A DNA stretch of 64,000 nt from Candidatus Bathyarchaeota archaeon. Lineage in GTDB: Archaea; Thermoproteota; Bathyarchaeia; Bathyarchaeales; Bathycorpusculaceae. The DNA is taken from positions 1 through 64,000 of the forward strand of contig JAGTQZ010000001.1 of assembly GCA_018396705.1 (NCBI GenBank), written 5' to 3'. Positions within the stretch are counted from its first letter, which is position 1. Every line of letters begins with the position of its first letter. Below are positions 17,170 through 25,739 of this stretch, in pieces. A model generated the notes under the pieces. It did not search any database and was not told the DNA's origin. It saw only the letters and a list, made by a program, of their open reading frames with translations. The translations under genes and the position numbers were made by a program.

Positions 17170-18576
17170 TTAATTTTCTCCCAGTTTAAATTCTTCGTGG
17201 ATTGCTTGCACGGCAGCCGGGCCGTCTGTTTCTTTAACGACAAACGATATATTTAGCTCGGAGGATCCTTGAGCAATCATTCTCACGTTAATGCCTCTAC
17301 GCGCGACCGCCGTGAATATTCTAGAAGCTATACCTGGGGTGTTCCGCATTCCCGCGCCGACAACCGATATCACGCATACATCATCTTCAGCGTTTATTTC
17401 CCTGATAGGTCCCCCTCCGAGAAGGGCTAATTCTAAGGCATTAACAGCCTTTTCTAAAGCATTTCTGCGAACAATGAGGGATATATTAGCCTCAGAGGCA
17501 CCTTGTGAAATCATAAGAATGTTGATCCTGTTTTTACCGAGAACTTCAAAGACTTTGGCTGCCGTTCCAGGGGCTCCCACCATGCCAGCACCACTGATGT
17601 TTATTAATGCAACATCTTTAAGTAACGTTACTGCCTTAACAGTGGTTCCGGGTTTAGACTTTACTTCTCTAATGAGGATTGTTTCAGGACCCCCGGGGTT
17701 AAAGATGTTCTTTATTCTGACTATTGTATCTCTGTCCATGATGGGCTCTAAAGCCCTTGGATGCATAGCCTTGGCCCCGAAAACAGCCATCTCTAAAGCC
17801 TCTTTAAAGGAAATTTCAGGCAAGGTTTTCGCGTTTGGCACTATTTTCGGGTCGGAAGTCATTAGTCCGTCTACGTCTGTCCATATCCAAATCTCTTCAG
17901 CTTCTAAGGCAGCGCCTATTATGGTGGCGGTGTAGTCTGAGCCTCCGCGGCCCAAAGTGGTTGTAACACCATCCTGAGTGGCGGCTATGAAACCGGTTAC
18001 TACGGGAACCATGCCCCTTTGTAGAATTGGTTCCAAGCGCTCCTTAACTTGAAGCTGAGTAACCTTCATCAGCGGATTAGCCTCACCAAAATTGTCATCG
18101 GTGACTATGCCGGCTTCTGCCCCTGTTAGGAAACATGCGTTCAGTCCAATATCCTTTAGGGCGCCATATACTATTGGGGCAGAGAGCCTTTCGCCAAAAG
18201 ATAGAATGTAATCTCTAGATCTTGGCGTAAGCTCGCCCACATACACTATTCCAGTCAAAACTTTTTCAAGCTCTTCTAGCGTAGCTGCAATCGTCACTTG
18301 AACTTCCTTTAGTATGAAAGCATTGGATATGGCTTCCTCGGCAACCTTTAGATGCCTATCTAAAAGATTCTGTTTGAACTGGTGGATAAAGCCTTTGTCA
18401 CGTTTCTCAGCTTGTTCAGCAGCTTCAATAAGTTTTTCGGTTATGCCGTCAAGAGCGGAGACGACAGCGACAACTTGACGTCCCATGTTTATGTTCGAGG
18501 CTATCAGCTTTGCTATTCTGTGGATGTTTAATCCAGTGGCTACGGAGGTTCCTCCAAACTTCATTACTATTCTCAT
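17170..18576 (-). CDS. lysC: Aspartokinase (threonine-operon copy)
   Basis: Phosphorylates aspartate, the entry to the aspartate family. It has the N-terminal MKFGGTSVATG motif, SFGERLSAPIV, the TTLGRGGSDYTA segment and DVDGLMTSDPKIVP, with two C-terminal ACT regulatory domains (NISGAGMVGAPGTAAKVF and SVVGAGMRNTPGIASRIF). At about 468 residues it is full length. I prefer ATG 18576, with AGGTGA 5 nt upstream, to a GTG at 18585. It is the third gene of a thrC-hom-ask operon, 13 bp after hom. A second aspartokinase lies in the lysine operon at 59733, so this one is probably tuned to threonine, an inference from location only. Confidence 0.92.
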   Translation of the reverse strand: MRIVMKFGGTSVATGLNIHRIAKLIASNINMGRQVVAVVSALDGITEKLIEAAEQAEKRDKGFIHQFKQNLLDRHLKVAEEAISNAFILKEVQVTIAATLEELEKVLTGIVYVGELTPRSRDYILSFGERLSAPIVYGALKDIGLNACFLTGAEAGIVTDDNFGEANPLMKVTQLQVKERLEPILQRGMVPVVTGFIAATQDGVTTTLGRGGSDYTATIIGAALEAEEIWIWTDVDGLMTSDPKIVPNAKTLPEISFKEALEMAVFGAKAMHPRALEPIMDRDTIVRIKNIFNPGGPETILIREVKSKPGTTVKAVTLLKDVALINISGAGMVGAPGTAAKVFEVLGKNRINILMISQGASEANISLIVRRNALEKAVNALELALLGGGPIREINAEDDVCVISVVGAGMRNTPGIASRIFTAVARRGINVRMIAQGSSELNISFVVKETDGPAAVQAIHEEFKLGEN

Positions 18577-18589
18577 CAAAGTCACCTAA

Positions 18590-19615
18590 TTATGCAAGCA
18601 ATTTTGCAGCAAGCTCTTGCTTTATATCTAGAAGGTCCCGCAATATAGCACTGGCGGTTTCAACTCCACCAGCGCCTCGCCCAATGATGGTCTGTTCGCC
18701 TGCAAATTCTGAATAGAAAGTCACCGCGTTAAGAGTTCCGCTGACGGATAAGGGGCTGGTTTTAGGGATTTTCTCCGGTTTAACCTCTAACTTTCCGTTA
18801 ACTGAGCCTATTAACTTAATTGTGCAATTGTCCTTTGCAGCGTCTTCAATATGTTTCATGGAAATGCCTCGAATGCCTTTAATGTTTACGTCTTTTAACG
18901 TAACTTTTTTGTTCATAACCCAGTTAGCTAAAATCACAAGCTTACATGCAGCGTCTATTCCGTCAACATCCATGGATGGGTCAGCCTCAGCATAGCCAAG
19001 CTGTCTAGCCTTCTGAAGAGCCTCTTCAAAGGGAATGCGCCGCTCAGTCATTTCTGTCAGTATATAATTTGTTGTCCCGTTAAGAATGCCCTTTAACGAT
19101 AGAATCTTGTCACCGTATAAACATCTTTTGGCGAATTCAAGTATCGGAGTCCCAGCGCCCACGGAGCCGCTGAACCTAAAATAAACTTGATTATGTTCAG
19201 CCAGTTCTGTAAGAGCGGGCAAGGCTAAAGCTAACGGCCCCTTATTTGAAGTTACAACATTTTTACCAGCCTTAAAAGCGCTTTTTATGTATGAAAGAGC
19301 TGGCTCTCCATCCTTGATGTTGGTTGGTGAAACCTCGACGAGAGCCTCAGCGTCCAAGGACTCAATTAGGTCTAAGATGGGTATCCCCAATTTTCCGTAC
19401 GCTTCATCAGCAGCTACAGTGCCCTTCTCCGCTTTTACTGATAACATCCTTTGCAAGTCTAAACCCTTCAGGTTTACGGCAACACCGCCTTTATCGGCAA
19501 TAGCGACAACTCTTGGCCGAAATCCATAGACATTAGATAGTTCCAACTCGCGTTTAATGAAGAGTTTGGCAAGACTTTGCCCGACAACACCGAACCCGAC
19601 AAGAATTATGCGCAC
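18590..19615 (-). CDS. hom: Homoserine dehydrogenase
   Basis: Reduces aspartate semialdehyde to homoserine. It shows the N-terminal Rossmann motif ILVGFGVVGQSLAKLF, the VTSNKGPLA segment, the catalytic block with LKGILNGTTNYILTEM, and QLGYAEADPSMDVDGIDAACKLVILA. No C-terminal ACT domain is present (about 340 residues), the usual short archaeal form. I selected GTG 19615 because GGAGG lies 8 nt upstream; a TTG at 19636 would add seven residues not conserved in the family. It lies in the same operon as thrC (upstream) and ask (downstream). Confidence 0.92.
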   Translation of the reverse strand: MRIILVGFGVVGQSLAKLFIKRELELSNVYGFRPRVVAIADKGGVAVNLKGLDLQRMLSVKAEKGTVAADEAYGKLGIPILDLIESLDAEALVEVSPTNIKDGEPALSYIKSAFKAGKNVVTSNKGPLALALPALTELAEHNQVYFRFSGSVGAGTPILEFAKRCLYGDKILSLKGILNGTTNYILTEMTERRIPFEEALQKARQLGYAEADPSMDVDGIDAACKLVILANWVMNKKVTLKDVNIKGIRGISMKHIEDAAKDNCTIKLIGSVNGKLEVKPEKIPKTSPLSVSGTLNAVTFYSEFAGEQTIIGRGAGGVETASAILRDLLDIKQELAAKLLA

Positions 19616-19637
19616 ATCTAAAGCCTCCAACGGCAAC

Positions 19638-20873
19638 TTATGTTAATTGTACAGTTAATCCCAATAGCTTTTCGATTGCGCTTAATTCAGCATCAACCTC
19701 GTATGGTTTCTCAAAAGTCTTTACAACAACCTCTGGATCCTTAAGGCCATGTCCCGTCGTAACGCAGACAACGACTTCATCCTTATCTATTTCTCCCCCC
19801 TCAACAAGCTTTTTTAGTCCAGCTATTGACGCCGCGCTTGCTGGCTCTACGAATATGCCTTCGGATCTGGCAAGCATTTTTTGGGCTTCTAGAATCTCGT
19901 GATCGCTAACTGTTTCAGCGGTTCCTTTTGATTCTCTTATGGCGCGTAAAGCCTTTTTCCAGCTTACGGGCGCCCCTATTCTTATAGCGGTAGCTACTGT
20001 TTCTGGTTTCTCGACTGGAACAATTTTATCTACTCCCGTTTTAACGGCTTTCGCTATCGGAGCGGCGCCCTCAGCTTGAATACCTATCATTCGCGGAAGC
20101 TTATTTATCAATCCAAGTTCGTAAAATTCGGTGAACCCCTTCCATATAGCGCTTATGTTTCCAGCGTTGCCAACTGGCAGTACAACAGCATCCGGGGCCT
20201 CTCGGTTCAGTTGGTCGCAAATTTCATAAGCAATTGTCTTCTGTCCCTCTATTCTGAAGGGGTTAATGGAGTTTAGCAAGTATATCTCCCTATGTTCTTC
20301 TGAGAGCTTCAAAACCATCTCCAAGGCTTTGTCAAAGTTGCCTCGAATTTGTACAACTTTCGCTCCGTACGCTATTGCTTGAGCTAATTTCCCAAAAGCG
20401 ATGGCGCCGGAGGGTATCAGTATTATGCAAGATAACCCTGCCTTTGCGGCGTAAGCAGCCAATGACGCAGACGTGTTGCCTGTTGATGCGCAAGCAACCA
20501 TTTTAACCCCAAGCTCCACGGCCTTAGTTACGCCGACAGTCATCCCTCTATCCTTGAAAGATCCGGTGGGATTTTCTCCCTCGTTCTTAACGTATAGAGT
20601 TTCTAGTCCCAAGATTTTTCCTAGACGGTGGCATGAATAAAGGGAAGTGCCCCCTTCGTTGAGTGAGATAACATTTGAGAAATAGCGGATTGGCATAAAA
20701 TCGCGGTAACGCCAAACCGACAAGGGTAAGCTTTGCCAATTACTTTTTTCAAGCTTCTCTTTGAGAAAGGAGTAATCATATCTTATTTCGAGAATGTCGC
20801 CGCATTTCGCACAATTGTAAATTACTTTTTCTATATCGTATTGGTCATTACAGTTAATGCATACTTGGTACAT
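19638..20873 (-). CDS. thrC: Threonine synthase
   Basis: Converts O-phosphohomoserine to threonine using pyridoxal phosphate. The first 35 residues hold a zinc-ribbon-like motif (CINCxxxY, then CAKCGD), as in archaeal ThrC. The PLP lysine is in NPTGSFKDRGMTVG, the phosphate loop is in LPVGNAGNISAIWKG and the Ser-Thr-Gly block is ACASTGNTSASLAAYAAKAG. The length of 411 is normal. It is the first gene of the minus-strand threonine operon. I see no homoserine kinase in this window, so the preceding step must be encoded elsewhere. Confidence 0.93.
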   Translation of the reverse strand: MYQVCINCNDQYDIEKVIYNCAKCGDILEIRYDYSFLKEKLEKSNWQSLPLSVWRYRDFMPIRYFSNVISLNEGGTSLYSCHRLGKILGLETLYVKNEGENPTGSFKDRGMTVGVTKAVELGVKMVACASTGNTSASLAAYAAKAGLSCIILIPSGAIAFGKLAQAIAYGAKVVQIRGNFDKALEMVLKLSEEHREIYLLNSINPFRIEGQKTIAYEICDQLNREAPDAVVLPVGNAGNISAIWKGFTEFYELGLINKLPRMIGIQAEGAAPIAKAVKTGVDKIVPVEKPETVATAIRIGAPVSWKKALRAIRESKGTAETVSDHEILEAQKMLARSEGIFVEPASAASIAGLKKLVEGGEIDKDEVVVCVTTGHGLKDPEVVVKTFEKPYEVDAELSAIEKLLGLTVQLT

Positions 20874-21073
20874 TAATCGTCATGCTCCAGCAAAGTAACA
20901 CCCTTCCCGGCTTTATATAAAAGGTTTCTGCAATTGCACTCGCAAAGTTGAAACACTTTGCGTAGGGCTTCAACCTTAGTCAAAAATTAGAGGGGAAATT
21001 GTTATTGGCCTATGTAAAATCGAATAGGAGGGAAGTGAAAATAAAACCATCACATTATTTATTTTACGGGCTT

Positions 21074-22012
21074 TTATACAACCAGCTGAATTATTATAAG
21101 TATGACGATCAGTATCACTAGTATCTTTAAGGCTTTGCTGTTGAATCTTTGGGCTTCTTCAGCTTTTTTGGCGTCCACAAGCTTCATGATATAGACTGAC
21201 ACAGAGAGGTTGTAGAGAAAGATGGCGTAAACAGAAATCATCATTCTATCCGCCAATGTCAAGTAGCCTATGGGTGGTATACCACTAAGTAGTGAAAGGT
21301 GAAACGCTGAAGCAGACATCAAAGTTGAAACCGCCAAGCCTATCCGCTGCCCGAAGTTCTGTGGAGAAATGAAGAACGTTAAAAGCGATATGGTTGTTAT
21401 AACCGATATTGGCAGCACGCTTTTAACAAAAGCTGAGAACACTGGCCGCTTTAGGTATAAGATAAAGACAAACCTCGAATAGGTTTCATCGCCATAAGAG
21501 TGCTCCACAACCATCTGTTCAAAGCCGCCTATCTCCCAACCAGCAACATTAACCGTCTCGTCCACGGCTGACTCCGAGTCTGGCCTAAAAATCAGAAGTG
21601 AAGCATTACGACTCTTATGCTCAAGTTCAATGGTAAGCATGTGAGTTTCAAATGGATATCGAGTGAAGTCAAAGGTTTTCATGAACTCTCCTCTTATGCG
21701 ATATTCAACACGGTTTTCCTCTTCAGCAACCGTTTCCGGCGTTTTTGTTGGAGCACCGTTAACGATTTCAAACTCTTTCACTTCAGCTGAACTAATTTCT
21801 GAGGAATTAAATTTGAACCATAGATAAAAGTCTAGGCGGTAACTGCTGGCGGTTAAGTCAATTTTTTCTACATTTATAAGCCAGATACCCACGTGAACCT
21901 CTGTACGGTTTTGGTTTGCGGTAGCCTGTTGCGCTCCAACTCTTCCACAAAACAGTAGCGTAAAGGCGAAAGCTGAAAGTAAGGCAATTATAATCAAACT
22001 TTTCAGTCGCAT
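21074..22012 (-). CDS. Pentameric ligand-gated ion channel (Cys-loop receptor superfamily), archaeal
   Basis: 312 residues with a signal peptide (residues 1-27), an extracellular beta-sandwich of about 180 residues and four membrane helices. The sandwich contains VGIWLINVEKIDLTASSYRLDFYLWFKF and the Pro-loop FDFTRYPFETHMLTIELE (no Cys pair, as in GLIC/ELIC-type prokaryotic channels). M1 starts near SVLPISVITTISLLTFF, M2 is RIGLAVSTLMSASAFHLSLL, M3 is DRMMISVYAIFLYNLSVSV, and M4 is the terminal hydrophobic run. The fold assignment is strong; ligand and ion selectivity cannot be read from the sequence. Members are uncommon in archaea. It is a single-gene unit between thrC and metE on the same strand. 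Confidence 0.88.
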   Translation of the reverse strand: MRLKSLIIIALLSAFAFTLLFCGRVGAQQATANQNRTEVHVGIWLINVEKIDLTASSYRLDFYLWFKFNSSEISSAEVKEFEIVNGAPTKTPETVAEEENRVEYRIRGEFMKTFDFTRYPFETHMLTIELEHKSRNASLLIFRPDSESAVDETVNVAGWEIGGFEQMVVEHSYGDETYSRFVFILYLKRPVFSAFVKSVLPISVITTISLLTFFISPQNFGQRIGLAVSTLMSASAFHLSLLSGIPPIGYLTLADRMMISVYAIFLYNLSVSVYIMKLVDAKKAEEAQRFNSKALKILVILIVILIIIQLVV

Positions 22013-22071
22013 GATCGCCCCCCATCGGAAATCTCCGCCTTTAAAAACTCTGATATTTAAGTTTTGCCAAC

Positions 22072-23118
22072 CTAATTTTCGCGAAAGAATGACTGAACAG
22101 CTTTCACAGCATTAACGGTTCTCTTCAAAACCAATTGAGCTGCTTCTTGAGTTGGCCACCCGCCTAATCCGCAATCCGGTCCAGTGAAGGTTAATCTTTC
22201 TCCAAACTTCTCCTTCGCACTTTTAAATCGTCTTTTTATGGTTTCTTCGTCTTCCACAATTTGCCATATTTGCGGTTCTTTAACTCCCATCTCGTAAAGC
22301 TCAGCCAAGATAGCGTCTATATCTGTTCTAGACACACCTACCCGAATTTGTTTATCCGCTTTTTCCAACATGCTTTTTGATACGGCTTCCAAATTTTTAG
22401 GAGAGGCAGCGCATTCCACCGAAACCACGTCCAAGTTTTTAACCCCAAGAAGTTCAGCAATCCTCGCCGTGGAGTGGAGGTGGATTTGTTTTGTTGCTCC
22501 GCTGAAGCTGAAGGCTTTCTCAAAAACTTCCAAAACCACATCTTTCGCAGCCGCCACGTCCTGAAACCCGAAACTGGGCTCATCCAAAGAAACCACTTCA
22601 GTTTTAACATGTTTAGAGTTTAAAAGCGAATTAACAGCAAACCTTCGCACAGTCTCAGCAAACATCAATAAGACATCCGTATAAGCAGCAGTTCCAACCT
22701 CTTTAATGTAAAGCTCAAATGGACCCGTTACACAGACACGAAGGGCGATTCTTTCTATACCCAGCTCCTCGCACAATTTCTTTGCTTCGCTGTTAATGAC
22801 ATAAAGTTCCGGGATGACTGCTTCTTCCTTTTCAACAATATACGTGCCTTTTTCCATGGCTCTATGAATTGACTCAATAAACTGCCGGTGTATATCATAA
22901 TGCTGTGGATAATTAACAACGTCTAAGCCTGCTTCGCATTTCATCTTGAAAGAAGCCTTAACCACGGTATAGAAGTTCCTAAACAAGAATTCATCATCTG
23001 TTAAGGCTCCACCCTCAATCACTCGATCTCTTGCCATGGCATAAGCTTTCTCAAAGTTTTTCCGCTCAACAAACTGAGGCAAGGGGAAACTTCCTATGTC
23101 ATCAACCAACGTTTGCAT
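22072..23118 (-). CDS. metE: Archaeal short-form methionine synthase (MetE C-terminal domain type)
   Basis: Methylates homocysteine to methionine. About 348 residues correspond to the catalytic barrel of MetE without the N-terminal half, as in archaea that use methylcobalamin or a corrinoid protein as donor. Zinc-site candidates are H in QIHLHSTARIAELL, C in VSVECAASPKN and C in FTGPDCGLGGWPT. DEPSFGF is the substrate-site block. I chose ATG 23118 because the family begins near TLVDDIGSFPLP and a TATA-like run (about 23146-23155) lies some 30 bp before it; ATG 23172 would add 18 hydrophobic, non-conserved residues. With the homocysteine operon at 14.5 kb it completes methionine synthesis. Confidence 0.85.
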   Translation of the reverse strand: MQTLVDDIGSFPLPQFVERKNFEKAYAMARDRVIEGGALTDDEFLFRNFYTVVKASFKMKCEAGLDVVNYPQHYDIHRQFIESIHRAMEKGTYIVEKEEAVIPELYVINSEAKKLCEELGIERIALRVCVTGPFELYIKEVGTAAYTDVLLMFAETVRRFAVNSLLNSKHVKTEVVSLDEPSFGFQDVAAAKDVVLEVFEKAFSFSGATKQIHLHSTARIAELLGVKNLDVVSVECAASPKNLEAVSKSMLEKADKQIRVGVSRTDIDAILAELYEMGVKEPQIWQIVEDEETIKRRFKSAKEKFGERLTFTGPDCGLGGWPTQEAAQLVLKRTVNAVKAVQSFFREN

Positions 23119-23216
23119 GGAAAAAATTAGGAAGGCGTACAATAATAAAGTTACCTTATCACGTTTTCGCATGAGGCTCGCGCAACATATATAAGCGCGT
23201 TTTTATTGCTTGGAAC

Positions 23217-24267: not shown

Positions 24268-24963
24268 ATGAGGCAAACTCCACAAATAATCGCGAATGCT
24301 GTTAAAGAAGGAAGAAAGCACCTCTATGAAACAGAGGCGAAAACAATATGCATGGAATATGACATACCTGTAACAGCTTTTAAACTAGCCGAAAGCGAAG
24401 CCGAAGCCGTTAAAGCCGCAGAGGAAATAGGCTTCCCGGTTGTTTTGAAAATAGTTTCACCCGATATAATTCACAAGTCAGACGTCGGCGGAGTAATGTT
24501 AAACTTAAAAAACGCCAAAGAAGTTAAAACTGCCTACAAACGGATAATGGAAAACGTTAAAAAACATAAAAGAGATGCAAAAATAATTGGCGTAATAGTC
24601 CAAGAAATGGCTCCACCATCAACGGAAGTCATCGTCGGCGCCATAAAAGATCTCCAGTTTGGCCCAACCTTAATGTTTGGGCTTGGAGGTGTTTTTGTTG
24701 AAATCCTGAAAGATGTTACCTTCAGAGTGGTACCAATAACCGAAGAAGAAGCCCGCGAGATGCTGACCGAAATAAAGGCCTATCCACTCCTTAAGGGTTA
24801 TAGAAACCTGCCACCAGCAGACACTGAAGCGATAGTTAAAATTTTGCTAAACACTTCAAGGCTTGTAACGGAGCATCTGGAAATTAAAGAACTGGACTTA
24901 AACCCCGTAATGGTTTATGAGAAAGGCGCAAAAACGGTTGACGCAAGGATTATCCTTGAATAA
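24268..24963 (+). CDS. Acetate/acyl-CoA ligase (ADP-forming), beta (ATP-grasp) subunit
   Basis: 231 residues of the ATP-grasp subunit of ADP-forming acyl-CoA synthetase, which makes ATP from acyl-CoA during peptide or sugar fermentation. Motifs are AAEEIGFPVVLKIVSPDIIHKSDVGGV, the IVQEMAPPSTEVIVGAIKDLQFGPTLMFGLGG block and the C-terminal ELDLNPVMV. The alpha subunit is not in this window. The Thg1-like gene that follows overlaps its last codons. Confidence 0.9.
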   Translation: MRQTPQIIANAVKEGRKHLYETEAKTICMEYDIPVTAFKLAESEAEAVKAAEEIGFPVVLKIVSPDIIHKSDVGGVMLNLKNAKEVKTAYKRIMENVKKHKRDAKIIGVIVQEMAPPSTEVIVGAIKDLQFGPTLMFGLGGVFVEILKDVTFRVVPITEEEAREMLTEIKAYPLLKGYRNLPPADTEAIVKILLNTSRLVTEHLEIKELDLNPVMVYEKGAKTVDARIILE

Positions 24964-25327
24964 CTACGTATACCTAGCTAAAAATGAAGTCTTCTCAAAG
25001 GCCTCAGTTCCGCTTGGAACATGTTTCTTCGTAAGGCTTGATGGTTGGAAATCTAGAAGGCTTTCAGAGGCTGTCGGTGCTGAAAAACCCTTTGATAAAA
25101 AGTTTGTCAGATGCCTAGTCTCTTCGGAGAAGTTACTTTTTAAAGTAGGGTTTAATCCAGCTTTAGTTTACGCGGTCAGTGATGAACTGAATATTCTATT
25201 CATGAGTAGTGCACCCTTTAACGGTCGAATCGAGAAAATAGACTCAATTACGTCAAGTTTAGTTTCATCAGCCTTTGCCATTATACTTACAGAGTCTGTT
25301 TGGCAAGACAGAGATCGTAGCCTTTGA
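24956..25327 (+). CDS. Thg1-like tRNA 3'-5' polymerase, N-terminal part (frameshifted)
   Basis: First half of a tRNAHis guanylyltransferase/Thg1-like protein. Metal-binding block 1 is FVRLDGWKSRRLSE followed by KPFDKKF; block 2 is YAVSDELNILF. The strand SITSSLVSSAFAI leads into the frameshift. The TTG at 24956 gives MNNYVYLAKNEVFS, the expected family start, overlapping the preceding gene by 8 bp; an ATG at 24917 would lie deep inside that gene. After LTES the frame runs into a TGA at 25325, while the expected continuation (GKTEIVAFDSRIV) lies one base on in the +1 frame. It is therefore either a broken gene, an assembly error, or a recoded one. Confidence 0.78.
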   Translation: MNNYVYLAKNEVFSKASVPLGTCFFVRLDGWKSRRLSEAVGAEKPFDKKFVRCLVSSEKLLFKVGFNPALVYAVSDELNILFMSSAPFNGRIEKIDSITSSLVSSAFAIILTESVWQDRDRSL

Positions 25328-25739
25328 TTCAAGGATTGTTCTAGTACCAGACGAAGACACTGTAGTAAAATATATGGCTTGGAGGCAAAATAACGCTTGG
25401 AGAAATCACAATAACGCGTATGCCTATTGGTGTCTAAGAAAAATGGGTTACAAACCATCAGAAACAGCTAGGATATTGAAAGGAATGAAAACAGAAGAAA
25501 TTCATAGAACCCTATTTAGACATGGAATAAATTTGGATGAGACACCTCTATGGCAAAAAAGAGGAATCCTCCTATACAAGGAACCCATTACAAAGAAAGT
25601 TAAAGGGCTAGAAGTCACTCGGTGGAAGGTTAAGGAAGACTGGAACTTACCCCTATTCACAACAAGAGACGGAGTGAAATTAATCCATCAAATCCTTGAA
25701 TGGGCAAGAAGAAAGGAGGGCTCAATTGTCAAGGAATGA
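25275..25739 (+). CDS. Thg1-like tRNA 3'-5' polymerase, C-terminal part (frameshifted)
   Basis: Second half of the same protein in the +1 frame. It carries VAFDSRIVLVPDEDTVVKYMAWRQNNAWRNHNN, the signature after the catalytic core, then LRKMGYKPSE, LFRHGIN and PLWQKRGILLYKEP, all in the order seen in intact Thg1 homologs. The first true residues are probably at about 25300; the TTG at 25275 is only the first possible start in that frame. Thg1-like proteins add or repair nucleotides at tRNA 5' ends in the 3'-5' direction. The two halves together make a protein of about 260 residues, normal for the family. Confidence 0.78.
   Translation: MPLYLQSLFGKTEIVAFDSRIVLVPDEDTVVKYMAWRQNNAWRNHNNAYAYWCLRKMGYKPSETARILKGMKTEEIHRTLFRHGINLDETPLWQKRGILLYKEPITKKVKGLEVTRWKVKEDWNLPLFTTRDGVKLIHQILEWARRKEGSIVKE

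Follow-up and report, generated by a model that had tools for sequence, protein, structure and literature searches.

The window, by which we mean the whole 64,000-nucleotide stretch of contig JAGTQZ010000001.1, from an uncultured Bathyarchaeia archaeon, analysed here, carries on its minus strand, at 21074-22012, an open reading frame for a protein of 312 amino acids, which runs without an internal stop from an ATG at 22012 to a stop codon at 21074-21076, while the opposite (plus) strand holds many stops across the same interval. The product is identified as a pentameric ligand-gated ion channel (pLGIC) of the Pro-loop receptor kind, a true relative of the channels that serve animal synapses, with a probability of about 0.9 that covers this identity and the general mechanism only, and the frame itself, PDB and profile matches, an AF2 model and its fold matches all point to it.

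On the same strand, a methionine-synthase-like gene (NCBIfam, E = 1.6e-77, under the curated cut-off) ends 59 bases upstream of the channel frame, which is followed downstream by a thrC-hom-ask cluster of genes for threonine synthase, homoserine dehydrogenase and aspartate kinase, the whole arrangement lying within 17170-23172. The genus and a single near genome (L001-L005, L043-L045) are alone in keeping the channel next to the methionine-synthase-like gene, thrC stands beside the channel in the window genome only, and the remaining loci share almost no neighbours. The neighbourhood was accordingly rejected as evidence for the ligand. A possible archaeal TATA/BRE-like box, AAACTTAAATAT, lies upstream of the start at 22053-22064 (minus strand) and is no better than chance, the upstream search having yielded two matches with at most one mismatch against 1.4 expected. 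Elsewhere in the window, a short plus-strand frame at 25275-25739 matches the Thg1 C-terminal domain (Pfam, E = 6e-8) and possibly continues an upstream frame at 24917-25327, which would make 24917-25739 a split Thg1-like gene.

Kinship and anatomy of the protein

GLIC, the proton-gated channel of Gloeobacter violaceus, is the top PDB match when the protein is searched as a single sequence (phmmer, E = 3.3e-13), and a profile built from 28 orthologues matches it over positions 32-306 with E ~ 1e-21. The NCBIfam LIC model returns E = 2e-13 for the window protein, yet this falls under its cut-off, and the Pfam domain Neur_chan_memb is weak on the window copy (E = 2e-4, failing the curated cut-off); the same domain is found at E <= 0.01 in 27 of the 28 orthologues, and 12 of 61 related genomes, the window genome not among them, contain a match that passes that threshold of Pfam. 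Orthologues with 54-81% identity occur in many genomes, and these, together with the GLIC and LIC scores and a dN/dS of 0.06-0.08, argue that the match of the frame is not due to chance.

All features of the protein are encoded on the minus strand. Residues 1-27 (21932-22012) form a signal peptide, as the preliminary description had proposed, with MRLK as n-region, a hydrophobic stretch at 5-22 and VGAQ at the end; its probable boundary is drawn from hydropathy and from the AF2 model, in which a helix at 2-22 gives way to pLDDT < 50 at 23-34. The extracellular ligand-binding domain (residues 36-189, 21446-21907) is a beta sandwich of ten strands, and is followed by helices M1 (191-212, 21377-21442, kinked at Pro201), M2 (220-242, 21287-21355), M3 (253-280, 21173-21256) and M4 (284-311, 21080-21163). 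The four helices counted earlier from the letters are thus all in the model, including M4, on whose presence the preliminary description had staked its reading. This single-chain model has a pLDDT of 79.2 and a pTM of 0.61, with low confidence in the M2-M3 loop (246-249). Over residues 31-312 (VIA-align) it matches the folds of GluCl (Z 22.5, 2.7 A, 275 residues), GABA-A (Z 22.3, 3.0 A, 271 residues) and GLIC (Z 22.2, 2.7 A, 270 residues), scores that are tied; for the animal anion-selective receptors as a group (GABA-A, glycine, GluCl) the fold Z is ~22, and Foldseek matches the model with E = 8e-20.

Every one of the top-conserved superfamily positions taken from Table 1 of PMC4795631 is present, namely Y119, P120, E122, W159, R189, P201 and P246, plus R223 at 0' of M2. 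The Pro-loop (residues 114-131, FDFTRYPFETHMLTIELE, 21620-21673) has the core Y119-P120-F121-E122, with the Pro kept in 28 of 30 Bathyarchaeia sequences, and E122, in place of the Asp of [F/Y]PxD, is Glu in all 30, a residue found at this position in 3% of the superfamily (PMC4795631). The beta9 Trp (W159), pre-M1 Arg (R189), M1 Pro (P201) and M2-M3 Pro (P246) are likewise present in 30/30 each. Since the sole Cys, C22, lies in the signal peptide and the mature protein has none, the metazoan-type Cys bracket is missing, and the protein is a Pro-loop receptor, not a Cys-loop one, in agreement with the earlier remark on a Pro-loop without the Cys pair.

Compared with solved channels, the window protein resembles GLIC in its whole-length homology (~19% identity), its extracellular domain with four helices, its Cys-less Pro-loop and its short M3-M4 linker, and departs from it in the Pro-loop (E122 for D), in an M1-M2 loop two residues longer, in lacking its proton sensors and in having small neutral residues where GLIC has its E-2' ring. 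The nearest known kind is the Pro-loop receptors of Thaumarchaeota/Nitrososphaeria (PMC4795631), and the best Nitrososphaeria-like copies are 39-44% identical to the window protein. Both share RIG(L/I)G(V/A)(T/S)TL and a 15' His, whereas Q-1', H132-K133 and YPFE set the Bathyarchaeia clade apart nearly throughout. In a tree, the 30 Bathyarchaeia-type sequences form one supported clade (97/96); the Nitrososphaeria-type sequences make up another (100/99), and there is a third, small group besides (100/100), with the bacterial and GLIC branches long and unsure in placement. Archaeal pLGICs were known before, and the initial reading of this gene as one of them is upheld by its profile matches, by the fold predicted for it, and by the signature residues and conservation described here. 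It is a further example, from a class for which the literature searched contains no pLGIC report: Bathyarchaeota go unmentioned in PMC4795631, and a search of incomplete coverage found no such report for Bathyarchaeota or Nitrosopumilus.

While the analysis establishes homology, orthology, domain anatomy, purifying selection and the signature residues, we infer that the window protein assembles as a pentamer, is gated by an extracellular ligand and opens a pore. The gene would encode one subunit of a homopentamer in the archaeal cell membrane, and the signal peptide would direct the N-terminal beta-sandwich to the cell exterior. Between adjoining extracellular domains, near Tyr63, Glu82, Arg105, Lys133, Tyr173 and Tyr178, a small solute would bind, and the resulting movement would be relayed to M2 by the Pro-loop together with Arg189 just before M1 and Pro246 between M2 and M3, so that the pore opens.

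Pore mouth and charge selectivity

With M2 numbering fixed by GLIC (E222 as -2', H235 as 11', N239 as 15'), the window pore has Gly at -2', Gln at -1', Arg223 at 0', Ile at 1', Gly225 at 2', Ser229 at 6', Met232 at 9', Ala236 at 13', His238 at 15', Leu at 16' and Ser at 20', and no acidic residue between -5' and 20'. The preliminary description had quoted residues 223-242, a peptide beginning at the 0' Arg, and judged M2 polar enough to line a pore; the helix is indeed there, and more telling than its polarity is a charge pattern like that of anion channels of the chloride-conducting kind, with Arg at 0' and no acid at -2', -1' or 2'. Among the 30 Bathyarchaeia sequences, Arg at 0' and His at 15' are invariant, -1' is Gln in 29 and Met in one, 13' is divided evenly between Ala and Thr (15 each), and 21' is Gly in 28. 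Across M1-M2-M3 the family needs no gap to align with GABA-A beta3, with which it also has in common the 0' Arg and the pattern R-x-x-L-G-x-T-T, whereas the shorter GLIC, sTeLIC and DeCLIC leave a gap of two residues and nAChR beta2 a gap of one; this holds for a family-typical query, the window's own M2 giving a tie between nAChR beta2 and GABA-A beta3 (0.0049 vs 0.005). Unlike animal anion receptors, the window protein lacks a Cys-loop, a full aromatic box, a large M3-M4 domain and the Pro-Ala before the 0' Arg; in the family GQR, AQR or SQR stand in place of their [P]A[R/K] motif, and the extra loop residue is not their Pro. The likeness to animal anion-selective Cys-loop receptors is meant only as a claim about how the channel works.

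On these sequence features it appears about as likely as not that anions, and not cations, go through the open pore. The prediction is drawn from the invariant 0' Arg, the lack of an acid ring at -2', -1', 2', 20' or 21', the M1-M2 loop of GABA-A length and the Ala/Thr at 13', and follows the logic by which the alpha7 nAChR becomes an anion channel, a conversion that needs insertion of a loop Pro, loss of Glu and V13'T jointly (PMC6800317). The replacement E-1'A has been reported as inverting or shifting selectivity in several pLGICs (PMC8011927).

A real, if minority, chance attaches to a cation-selective pore like that of the bacterial members studied, in which the acidic vestibule and not the M2 rings would set charge selectivity. 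Every orthologue has an acidic extracellular domain, with a net charge between -4 and -13 (-5 for the GLIC fragment), which would concentrate cations and leaves anion selectivity less than secure; in a single-sequence search the closest solved membrane domains are those of the bacterial sTeLIC and DeCLIC, and the pore-mouth site alone is no predictor of selectivity in prokaryotes (PMC4795631). sTeLIC and DeCLIC have shorter M1-M2 loops than the window family, and DeCLIC has an additional N-terminal domain. Against a cation-selective pore, the acids of the cation-selective bacterial channels (GLIC E-2', sTeLIC D2', DeCLIC E2', ELIC E-1') are all missing from a family that keeps its 0' Arg ring and A/T13'.

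Variation within the archaea also bears on the choice. Nested in the Nitrososphaeria-type clade, certain paralogues form a derived group (L084, L086, L088, L090, L092 and others) with Glu/Asp at -1' in 5/7, Glu/Asp at 21' in 7/7 and an aromatic residue at 13' in 7/7, and three genomes (G368, G258, G301) hold more than one pLGIC. That the -1' and 21' rings differ together between acidic and neutral types speaks against selectivity set by the vestibule and suggests that the charge rings matter functionally, on an informal comparison of a handful of related sequences. Returning to the anion-type pore, we propose tentatively, and with somewhat less than even confidence, that the Bathyarchaeia channel and its main-type Nitrososphaeria relatives are anion-selective while some ammonia oxidisers also possess an acidic, cation-type paralogue, which would amount to a synapse-like cation/anion split in archaea. 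No prokaryotic pLGIC is reported as anion-selective in the literature searched, and none from a microbe has a known biological role (PMC4795631). An anion-conducting pLGIC in a prokaryote, if true by experiment, would be a first; the neutral, arginine-ringed archaeal set offers a direct test for such channels, the same test bears on the age of the divide that underlies excitatory as opposed to inhibitory receptors, and any orthologues confirmed to come from thermophiles could offer structural biology stable material. Specialist interest should lie mainly in the anion-type pore mouth conserved in two archaeal groups and in the paired neutral and acidic types of ammonia oxidisers.

Two further observations concern these sequences. 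One locus (L084, in G368, a Nitrososphaeria-type genome) has tandem pLGIC genes, with matches at ~488-1267 and 1541-2380, of which one bears acidic rings at -1' and 21' and the other a neutral mouth like that of the window gene, possibly forming a heteromer or a cation/anion pair. His238, at 15' of M2 (21299-21301), is His in 48 of 54 archaeal sequences and invariant in both main archaeal types; in animal receptors the 15' position is part of the anaesthetic/alcohol pocket.

The extracellular pocket and gating

Several residues of the putative binding site are conserved in a manner compatible, if weakly, with a zwitterion, for example an amino acid. A receptor for zwitterionic amino acids or amines, in which loop A Glu82 and loop E Arg105 would clamp the two charges of a ligand flanked by loop D Tyr63 and loop C Tyr178, is nevertheless a doubtful proposal. 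Among the Bathyarchaeia sequences E82 and R105 are each present in 29/30, and Y63 and Y/F178 in 30/30; the main Nitrososphaeria type has all four in 9/9, and the second type has residues of like chemistry (D82, mostly K105, W63, F178). The residues by which GLIC binds carboxylates, R77, R105 and E181 (PMC7336382), align with E82, R105 and Y178, and in the window genome the gene adjoins the methionine-synthase-like gene and the aspartate-family cluster. Against this, the positions depend on an alignment at ~19% identity, E82 and R105 may just pair with each other, the aromatic box is incomplete, with Lys133 in place of the canonical loop B aromatic, and immediate adjacency of the methionine-synthase-like gene extends no further than the genus plus one close genome, other neighbours varying. 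A plain carboxylate bound at a GLIC-like site is not favoured either, R77 being replaced by Glu and E181 by Tyr and only R105 being retained.

Gating by external acid through the GLIC mechanism is unlikely. GLIC is the closest solved full-length relative, and the invariant His238 could titrate, but GLIC E26, E35, E222, H235 (the 11' His) and E243 align with N47, S56, G221, A234 and L242 of the window protein, and D32 and H277 likewise have no counterparts. Protons, which the preliminary description had listed among candidate ligands, are on this evidence a poor first guess.

Distribution and selection

The preliminary description called such channels sporadic in archaea, and this holds for both the class and the phylum. 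An orthologue is present in 15 of 38 good genomes of near relatives and in 37 of 257 genomes sampled from the class (~14%; the count is also given as 27/120), and a pLGIC in 41 of 397 genomes of the phylum sample. The nearest named loci belong to Candidatus Bathyarchaeota metagenome-assembled genomes, and the remaining carriers in the phylum are probably Nitrososphaeria (ammonia oxidisers), judging from kinship, from their compact complete genomes and from the Thaumarchaeota clade of PMC4795631. One scan of viral contigs confirmed no viral copy, and a plasmid collection held just ~25% identical relatives from Azospirillum and Streptomyces.

The orthologues are under purifying selection, with dN/dS of 0.06-0.08 between congeners, where dS is near saturation, and of 0.08 in two pairs with dS ~0.3; the membrane domain is as constrained as the rest of the protein, and most carriers have intact frames of near-identical length. 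Interrupted copies occur in a few otherwise good genomes, with a stop in G005 (L011) and split frames in G059 (L017), G325 (L075) and G540 (L091); they reflect either decay or sequencing error, and are in keeping with a dispensable gene that is selected where retained. The patchy distribution and these broken copies might suggest that the gene is a relic in decay, or that its product is a membrane sensor that does not act as a pore, but such constraint on the membrane domain, in frames otherwise so uniform, makes a non-conducting protein very improbable.

The class also harbours a second, highly divergent pLGIC family (L020, L094, L095, L096, L097), with 22-27% identity to the window protein, an M1-M2 loop two residues longer and an M2 that starts with a sequence like LR[LI]GL[ND]TS.
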